64,000 nucleotides of DNA from Olivibacter domesticus (GTDB lineage: Bacteria > Bacteroidota > Bacteroidia > Sphingobacteriales > Sphingobacteriaceae). Below, piece after piece: positions 25,216 through 28,049 of the stretch; within the stretch, counting starts at the first letter, position 1; the number at the start of each line of letters is the position of its first letter. The position numbers and the translations under genes are program-made. The stretch lies in the NCBI RefSeq assembly GCF_900109575.1, contig NZ_FOAF01000007.1, positions 124,001 through 188,000 of the forward strand, given 5' to 3'. The notes under the pieces were generated by a model. The model was not told the origin of the DNA. It saw only the letters and a program-made list of their open reading frames with translations, and ran no database searches.

Positions 25216-25563
25216 TTACCCACCTATTTGCTTCACTTTATAGCCTTCTTTTAGGAGAAAATCAAAGATTTTCGCTCGAAAATCCCCCTGAATAAGGATT
25301 TCATTATCTTTTACAGTACCGCCACCCCCACAACGCTGTTTAAGCGTTTTACCCAACTTCTCTAAGTCGGCCGATCGGCCAATGAATCCGGAAACAAGTG
25401 TAACAGCCTTCCCTGCTCTCTGTCTTTTATCTAATGCTACACGCAACTGTTGTTTTTGAGGCACAAGTGTTTCCACATCGGTTTTTTCGGTTTCTTCGTA
25501 CTCAAAATGCTGGTTTGTGGAATAAACTATTCCATCAAACTGATTTTTCTTTTGCTTAGACAT
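25216..25563 (-). CDS. YciH/SUI1 (eIF1-like) translation factor family protein
   Basis: 115 residues. The C-terminal half is a SUI1 domain: RAGKAVTLVSGFIGRSADLE, KQRCGGGGTVKDNEILIQGD (about residues 77-96) and the end VKQIGG. The glycine-rich CGGGGT segment is a family hallmark. Bacterial members (E. coli YciH) resemble eukaryotic eIF1 and can influence start-site fidelity, but the physiological role is unsettled. The N-terminal 30 residues are variable and charged. It lies 38 bp after the lipid-kinase gene and probably shares its transcript. Confidence 0.9.
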   Translation of the reverse strand: MSKQKKNQFDGIVYSTNQHFEYEETEKTDVETLVPQKQQLRVALDKRQRAGKAVTLVSGFIGRSADLEKLGKTLKQRCGGGGTVKDNEILIQGDFRAKIFDFLLKEGYKVKQIGG

Positions 25564-26530: not shown

Positions 26531-26625
26531 TTCAGAATTAAGGAAAAAGCTTAACATTGAGAACCAATGCTCAAGTAAAATGAAAATTCTTGGCCCATAA
26601 CATTCATTATTATCAAAATGAATTG

Positions 26626-26633
26626 TACTTTTG
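26626..26633 (+). promoter_or_regulatory. -7 box of the metK promoter
   Basis: TACTTTTG matches the Bacteroidota -7 consensus TAnnTTTG. Transcription would start near 26637, only about 7 nt before the first stem of the riboswitch, which is strong positional support. A matching -33 TTG at the ideal spacing is not present, so the upstream box is weak. Confidence 0.5.
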
Positions 26634-26643
26634 TAAGGTAAAA

Positions 26644-26709
26644 TGTGGAATGATTTGCGTGCCAATTATATGGCTGGATTGCAACCACAGTAAAAAAGTG
26701 CTAAAAAGC
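26644..26709 (+). promoter_or_regulatory. SAM-II-type riboswitch upstream of metK
   Basis: The pattern agrees with the SAM-II (metA-type) aptamer. P1 is TGTGG (26644-26648) with CCACA (26685-26689). Loop L1 holds TGATTTG (26651-26657) and TTGCAACC (26679-26686). A linker TAAAAAA and the 3' pseudoknot strand GCTAAAAAGC (26700-26709) follow. A small extra hairpin GCCA/TGGC (26661-26664 and 26671-26674) sits inside L1. The position before the SAM synthetase gene is biologically consistent. The 87 nt from its end to the metK ATG contain no clear terminator, so how it controls expression is not visible. SAM-I and SAM-III features are absent. Confidence 0.85.
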
Positions 26710-26795
26710 TTCTATCTGTTTTAACACTCCTCCGCATTACCTATCACAACATTTTACGACTAATAACATAATATTTATACTGAAAAACTAGTTTT

Positions 26796-28049
26796 ATGCC
26801 ATATTTATTCACTTCAGAGTCAGTTTCAGAAGGACACCCAGACAAAATTGCTGATCAGATTTCCGATGCCCTAATCGATAATTTTCTTGCTTGGGATCCT
26901 GATTCCAGAGTAGCCATTGAAACGCTCGTTACAACTGGTCAAGTAGTACTAGCAGGCGAAGTTAAATCAAATACGTATTTAGATGTTCAGAAGATAACAC
27001 GTTCCGTTATCGAAAGGATAGGATATACGAAGTCTGCCTATATGTTTGAAGCTAATTCATGTGGTATTTTATCAGCTATTCATGAGCAATCTGCAGATAT
27101 AAACCAGGGAGTTGATCGTAAAGAAAAGCAAGATCAAGGGGCAGGAGATCAAGGTATAATGTTCGGCTATGCAAATAAAGAGACCGATAATTTAATGCCC
27201 CTTGCACTCGATCTTTCTCATAAATTGCTATATGAACTGGCATTACTAAGACGAGAAAATAAGGAAATCTCTTATCTTCGACCTGATGCTAAGGCGCAAG
27301 TTACCATTGCTTACAACGATGATCATACCCCGTTGCATATCGATACTATCGTTATTTCTACGCAGCATGATGATTTTGACACAGAGACGGCAATGTTAGC
27401 TCAAATAAAAAAGGATATTATAGAAATCCTAATACCGAGGATAAAGTCCCAATTGAAACCTGCCCTTCAGGATCTATTTAACAATGACATAACTTATCAT
27501 ATTAATCCCACGGGTAAGTTCGTAATCGGTGGCCCGCATGGAGATACCGGCTTGACCGGTCGCAAAATTATCGTAGATACCTATGGAGGTAAGGGGGGGC
27601 ATGGCGGAGGTGCTTTTTCCGGCAAGGATCCTTCGAAGGTAGACCGATCAGCAGCGTACGCAGCACGTCATATTGCTAAAAACTTAGTGGCAGCAGGTGT
27701 AGCAGACGAAATTCTAGTACAATTATCATATGCCATTGGCGTAAAAGACCCCATGGGAATATATGTAAATACTTATGGTAAAAGCAATGTAGGTATTACG
27801 GATGGAGAAATAGCAAATAAGATCAAATCGCTATTTGATCTTACGCCCTACGGTATAGAGACAAGATTAAAACTCCGCAATCCTATATATACAGAAACAG
27901 CTGCTTATGGACATATGGGACGGGATCCAAGAATAGTAACCAAAACATTTGAAAATACTATTGGTGAGACAAAATCTATTGAAGTTGAACTCTTTACGTG
28001 GGAAAAGCTTGATTATATTGAGCAGGTACAAGAAGCCTTCGAGATTTAA
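26796..28049 (+). CDS. metK: S-adenosylmethionine synthetase
   Basis: 417 residues, standard family length plus some loop residues. It makes SAM from methionine and ATP. The start [17 protein letters not shown] matches the family N-terminus with the catalytic histidine and the ATP-binding residues. [12 protein letters not shown] (about 117-128) and the glycine-rich P-loop-like [20 protein letters not shown] (about 265-284) are the two PROSITE signatures. Expression is probably under the SAM-II-type riboswitch upstream, giving feedback by the product. A terminator follows at 28068-28098. Confidence 0.98.

Follow-up and report, generated by a model that had tools for sequence, protein, structure and literature searches.

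A long-loop SAM-II riboswitch upstream of metK in Olivibacter domesticus and a C-rich leader that may act through Rho

The closest described systems are the SAM-II riboswitches. These were reported from Bacteroidetes already in 2007 (PMC2258182), and RF01726 appeared in 2010 under the name 'SAM-II long loops', a cis-regulatory element with 'Bacteroidetes, marine' given as its taxa (Weinberg et al. 2010, PMC2864571). The cited passages of PMC2258182 and PMC6061858 describe most proteobacterial SAM-II riboswitches as transcriptional, often with terminators. A first-pass annotation of the present locus, made from the letters alone, had placed SAM-II elements usually close to the ribosome-binding site, a view at odds with the cited passage of PMC6061858, where most SAM-II elements are transcriptional. 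The element described here adds one more member to the already known RF01726 family and is routine as a single instance; the comparison across relatives is the useful part.

We performed an Rfam scan on the window, by which we mean the whole 64,000-nucleotide stretch of Olivibacter domesticus DNA that was analysed. The sole match at the curated threshold was RF01726 at 26639-26714, which covers the model in full (1-60) and scores 54.9 bits against a gathering score of 44 (E 8.9e-08). The O. domesticus genome contains one RF01726 match at E <= 0.001. The features of the locus are as follows.

26626-26633, forward strand: -7 promoter box TACTTTTG (TAnnTTTG), from the sequence, ending 10 nt before P1
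26639-26714, forward strand: SAM-II (long loop) aptamer, RF01726, from the covariance model
26644-26648, forward strand: P1 5' strand TGTGG, from the sequence, pairing with CCACA at 26685-26689
26652-26657, forward strand: third-strand segment of L1, GATTTG; ATTTG is invariant and the G at least 90% conserved in alignment A3
26661-26674, forward strand: long-loop hairpin GCCA-ATTATA-TGGC, from the sequence, with GCCA at 26661-26664 facing TGGC at 26671-26674
26677-26686, forward strand: core strand GATTGCAACC, from the sequence
26677-26689, forward strand: GATTGCAACCACA, P2 5' strand plus P1 3' strand, from core-word counts among relatives
26698-26705, forward strand: GTGCTAAA, pseudoknot P2 3' strand; TGCTAAA does not vary among the 25 aptamers aligned in A3
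26710-26795, forward strand: C-rich, G-poor, unstructured spacer and proposed expression platform, from composition and folding
26719-26728, forward strand: TTTTAACACT, weak candidate anti-aptamer, of which 9 of 10 positions could, by eye, pair with AGTGCTAAAA at 26697-26706
26796-28049, forward strand: metK, methionine adenosyltransferase, TIGR01034 equivalog, 499.6 bits against a cut-off of 309.4

The third-strand role of the L1 segment is taken from the SAM-II class (PMC6061858). Elsewhere in the window, at 25216-25563 on the reverse strand, there is a homologue of SUI1/YciH-type translation initiation factors that scores below the NCBIfam cut-offs.

The first-pass annotation had assigned the element to SAM-II, had named P1, GATTTG, GATTGCAACC, GTGCTAAA and the GCCA/TGGC hairpin as its parts and metK as the gene downstream, and had proposed a covariance-model search, a look at P1 covariation and a comparison of metK leaders. 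The class is borne out by the RF01726 score, the parts are all present in the sequence, and metK is confirmed by the TIGR01034 match. In P1, 3 of 25 Bacteroidota aptamers have A-U in place of U-A at one pair, which is a compensatory change; the three G-C pairs are invariant, and the outermost pair is formed in only 12 of the 25. With P1 slid by +2 the covariation score is similar (0.147, against 0.117 in the true register) and the share of paired cells is lower (71.4% against 89.6%). Both P2 strands, the GATTGC side and GCTAAA, are present and near-invariant in alignment A3, leaving hardly any change by which their covariation could be judged. We consider its identity as a SAM-II long-loop riboswitch near certain, and by analogy with its class it would bind SAM and act as an OFF switch.

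For the comparison, leaders were taken from those of about 190 matches in a genome scan of the taxonomic family that were listed or recovered by a further search. The aptamer and metK occur together at 263 of 284 loci, which give 213 distinct leaders; the other 21 loci comprise three with a variant core before metK, two at contig edges and 16 in which metK lacks the aptamer or is truncated. Removing leaders with a 6-mer Jaccard similarity above 0.25, and those with gaps under 40 nt, left 154 non-redundant leaders. Seven of these have no recognised P1 and were excluded from the promoter and loop counts, which therefore refer to 147. The core word is GATTGC in 136 of the 154 and GCTTGC in 14, and a GCTAAT variant of the pseudoknot 3' strand occurs elsewhere, for example in genus g14.

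Within the family, Sphingobacteriaceae, 189 of 201 genomes have an RF01726 match, as do 34 of 247 genomes at class level (7 of the 34 from the same family), both scans using strict filters by which weak matches can be lost. The element is present in all five Olivibacter genomes examined. The loop between GATTT and the core exceeds 12 nt in 92 of the 147 non-redundant relatives and is at most 6 nt in 55, and the GCCA/TGGC loop pairing recurs in two Olivibacter relatives (L034 and L035), with GCC/GGC in a third (L032). The loop hairpin, which had been annotated as an extra oddity, is thus a common trait of a family listed under the name of long loops; that the 'long loops' of the name are this aptamer loop is our own reading. 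In one leader, L121, the loop hairpin contains a short tandem duplication in which AATGAGAATAT is repeated, as seen by comparison with L112 and L113.

The box at 26626-26633 matches TAnnTTTG, which we take to be a -7 promoter box of the Bacteroidota type, and its distance of 10 nt from the riboswitch agrees with the first-pass annotation. Of the 147 non-redundant loci, 131 have a TAnnTTYG box in the 40 nt upstream of P1, at a median of 11 nt before it; chance would give 5.4 in 154, and a control stretch further upstream gave 2 in 154. Given this position of the box, transcription most likely begins only a few nucleotides upstream of P1. Two other promoter candidates were considered. No second promoter of this type was found between aptamer and metK, the sole TAnnTTYG in 26561-26800 being the one that precedes the aptamer, and two sigma-70-type spacer matches on the forward strand were discarded, since they belong to a set of 5 where shuffles give 3.0 (sd 1.8). 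Shine-Dalgarno sequences are little used in Bacteroidota, and, as had been annotated, none is seen by eye before the metK ATG. In the minimum-free-energy fold of the window leader, 26641-26648, including the P1 5' strand, is paired with 26799-26806, metK codons 2-4. We set this fold aside: the start codon would become free once SAM forms P1, contrary to what an OFF switch should do, and the pairing is probably due to chance.

The metK ATG at 26796 is separated by 86 nt from 26709, or by 90 nt from the end of GCTAAA. The first-pass annotation had given a gap of 87 nt and regarded it as unusually long. The gap is indeed long, at 86 or 90 nt depending on the end point, and it is not unusual: over the 213 distinct leaders the ATG follows the end of GCTAA(A) at a median distance of 79 nt, with a 5-95% range of 62-105 and extremes of 17 and 211, so that the 90 nt of the window fall inside the range of the relatives and are normal for the family.

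Loss of the aptamer provides a second view of the gap. Among the 12 family genomes without a match, 10 have a metK match, 9 of these with a readable metK 5' end, and no aptamer was found in the 240 nt upstream of metK at any of the 9. Here the distance from promoter box to ATG is 21-23 nt in six cases (L246-L250 and L252, from Parapedobacter, g19 and Sphingobacterium G016) and 42, 44 and 66 nt in the other three. Judged by the box, the same promoter type drives metK through a short leader when the aptamer is absent. In Sphingobacterium G089 the leader (L251), compared with L129, has lost both the aptamer and the anti-aptamer part and keeps the promoter, the 5' strand of P1 and some 35 nt at its end. 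The same natural internal deletion upstream of metK is seen in L193, from Sphingobacterium haloxyli. It seems that the riboswitch leader was lost as one block in several genera. Since loss of the aptamer goes with loss of most of the gap, the gap is suggested to be part of the switch; its narrow length range together with the co-loss suggests that the spacer belongs to it.

The absence of a terminator, already annotated from the letters, was confirmed. No terminator-like site was found in the window between 26500 and 27100, and none in the 154 leaders, against 3-10 in each of five shuffle sets. The same rule does find such sites among the TPP-riboswitch leaders of relatives, in 6 of 18 (19 of 39 TPP matches were used, and one, L286, was left out of the terminator count), and intrinsic termination was therefore rejected as the mode of action. 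The TPP leaders of relatives with hairpins resembling intrinsic terminators include L290, L307, L308, L310 and L311, and the genome of the window itself has four TPP riboswitch matches. An alternative in which the main effect of the switch is on the stability of the mRNA, or in which it uses an intrinsic terminator whose form escapes our simple rule, has some precedent: in the cited passages, SAM-II sRNAs and mRNAs of Sinorhizobium meliloti are stabilised at high SAM (PMC9373788), and terminators without a canonical U-tail exist (PMC2258182). We consider this alternative unlikely, the terminator variant having to escape in every one of the 154 leaders a rule that does detect terminators in 6 of 18 TPP leaders.

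The spacer is rich in C and poor in G. At -80 to -25 from the ATG the window spacer has C 0.29 and G 0.05, the largest C minus G among 24 upstream regions in the window, and folded alone it gives 0.0 kcal/mol. The spacers of relatives average C 0.251 and G 0.113, with C above G in 143 of 153 (one of the 154 was too short to be counted). C exceeds G in 9 of the 23 other upstream regions of the window, and in the TPP leaders in 10 of 19, counted over the 50 nt after the aptamer and so over a different stretch from that of the metK count. Across the leaders, predicted structure in the spacers does not fall below that of composition-matched shuffles (mean z 0.05). Rho sites have been described as unstructured and cytidine-rich (PMC10907184). 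The spacer composition thus resembles that of a Rho loading site, and a rho gene is present in the genome, from which we infer that Rho may be involved. In the open-licence literature, judged mostly by title and abstract, we found no paper on Rho with a SAM-II riboswitch and none on the RF01726 expression platform.

The reading that we favour, and hold tentatively at somewhat less than an even chance, is a SAM-II switch with its own promoter that lowers metK expression at high SAM via Rho and uses an anti-aptamer in the spacer. The RNA would be transcribed from the promoter about 10 nt upstream of the aptamer. At high SAM the pseudoknot would close and the C-rich, G-poor spacer would remain single-stranded, so that the free spacer could serve as a Rho loading site and transcription would end before metK or early in it. 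At low SAM part of the spacer would pair with the 3' half of the aptamer, at GATTGC, GTAAAA or GTGCTAA according to lineage, and this pairing would both block the pseudoknot and hide the Rho loading site.

Words complementary to the aptamer are enriched in the spacers. GCAATC, the reverse complement of the core word GATTGC, occurs in 26 of 154 spacers against 2.3 expected (shuffle maximum 8), a count that serves as a control and is no independent sample, the word having been chosen as the top 6-mer in 99 spacers that lie mostly within the 154. TGCAATC occurs in 17 of 154 against 0.8 expected from dinucleotide-preserving shuffles, and TTTTTAC, the complement of GTAAAAA, in 38 of 154 against 11.6. 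Control DNA upstream of the promoter, available in sufficient length for 153 of the 154, has GCAATC in 3 (3.9 expected), TGCAATC in 1 (1.3) and TTTTTAC in 7 (4.5), and the sense word GATTGC is found in 1 of 154 spacers, which is chance level. A degenerate second copy of the aptamer in the spacer was rejected, as GCAACC occurs in only 1 of 154.

Predicted pairing energies point the same way. Each aptamer with its own spacer gives a mean of -10.58 kcal/mol, against -9.62 (sd 0.13) with swapped spacers, and none of 5000 permutations was as low, in a test that leaves relatedness among the leaders in. It also counts against the pairing that a spacer rich in U and C readily pairs with an A-rich aptamer. 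Reversed spacers give -7.57 kcal/mol and reverse-complemented spacers -9.36. When the leaders were assembled by hand, from their genus labels, into 11 groups, own pairing was stronger than in shuffles in 9 of them (z -2.7 to -9.0, one group with n=2); it was not significant in Olivibacter (z -0.8, n=5) or in Parapedobacter (z +0.3, n=6).

In genus g14 the aptamer strand around GCTAA and an element of the spacer some 35-50 nt further downstream can form 10 pairs, an interaction that is 96.5% paired in 20 sequences and at most 54.1% paired when slid. At one of its pairs, 4 of the 20 sequences have G-C in place of U-A, a double change. The double-change cells together with the covariation score were matched by 1 of 500 shuffles, and the number of double-change pairs does not stand above that of shuffles, 352 of 500 of which reach it. 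For the g14 spacer a local hairpin (alignment A1, columns 40-44 with 52-56) was tried and rejected, being 59.6% paired with 0 compensatory changes.

Other measures of the pairing are weaker, and they bear on the possibility that the complementarity is a by-product of a pyrimidine-rich leader beside an A-rich aptamer, the aptamer no longer switching or switching by other means. The longest unbroken helix averages 15.76 against 14.79 in shuffles (sd of the mean 0.23), a modest excess that suits a by-product, and when helices at cut-offs of 16, 18 and 20 are counted some shuffles equal the observed number. A first duplex test gave p<=0.05 in only 24 of 126 leaders. GCAATC is found in 26 of 136 leaders with the GATTGC core and in 0 of 14 with GCTTGC, a difference short of significance (p 0.13). 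None of the 14 leaders with the GCTTGC core has the compensating GCAAGC, so that covariation at this site is unsupported; this too, like the missing pairing signal of Olivibacter and Parapedobacter, would fit a by-product. However, GCAATC is a word of mixed bases that far exceeds its frequency in shuffles keeping the dinucleotides, own pairing beats that with swapped spacers, and g14 has one compensatory change. We regard the by-product explanation as quite improbable.

For the window itself the composition of the spacer is observed directly, and pairing in Olivibacter is a supposition. The aptamer-spacer pairing of the window is not significant in either test: the duplex z is +0.69, with a best site different from TTTTAACACT, and 0.625 of shuffles do as well in the longest-run test, again at a site other than TTTTAACACT.

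The main rival to the Rho model is translational control at a distance, in which SAM-dependent folding would alter ribosome access to the distant start codon. It is encouraged by the metA riboswitch of S. meliloti, which according to the cited passage acts over 74 nt (PMC9373788), and by the last 20 nt or so before the metK ATG, which are A/T-rich and would suit initiation without a Shine-Dalgarno sequence. However, the S. meliloti system as described there needs a Shine-Dalgarno sequence inside the riboswitch, and none was seen by eye here. Where unbroken pairing is strongest (68 of 154 leaders), moreover, the pairing element lies at a median of 21.5 nt after the aptamer, away from the ATG, and where the aptamer is missing most of the spacer is usually missing too, which makes the spacer dispensable for translation. 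We judge translational control rather unlikely, and prefer the Rho reading.

The comparison shows that a long gap accompanies the switch in a phylum where Shine-Dalgarno sequences are little used. It is possible, if doubtful, that the SAM-II metK switches of Bacteroidota share one platform, consisting of a C-rich leader of 60-105 nt without terminator or Shine-Dalgarno sequence, in which a short anti-aptamer of the GCAATC, UUUUAC or GCACUU type, exchanged between lineages, would switch the access of Rho. For the working of SAM-II in this phylum, this yields a concrete prediction: Rho dependence together with a named anti-aptamer.

Among known systems, the FMN riboswitch of Escherichia coli ribB is reportedly Rho-controlled, a finding ascribed to Hollands et al. 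2012. The logic proposed here would be shared with it, the state of the ligand governing exposure of a Rho site, with Rho acting by inference at the present locus; its aptamer and ligand differ from those of the SAM-II element in the window. SAM_alpha (RF00521), the alphaproteobacterial SAM-II family, has the core words TTGCA and GCTAAA in common with the window aptamer, which scores only 16.9 bits against its gathering score of 36 and falls outside that family. Whereas proteobacterial SAM-II riboswitches often have terminators in the cited passages (PMC2258182, PMC6061858), none was found at the present locus. The S. meliloti metA riboswitch likewise has a long gap, acting on a start codon 74 nt away, but as described in the cited passage it has its own Shine-Dalgarno sequence inside the riboswitch and a Rho-independent terminator, neither of which is seen at the present locus (PMC9373788). 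The described RF01726 family (PMC2864571) is matched over the whole model, in a Bacteroidota host and with a long loop containing a hairpin, and the window aptamer shows no difference from what the cited passage gives for it.
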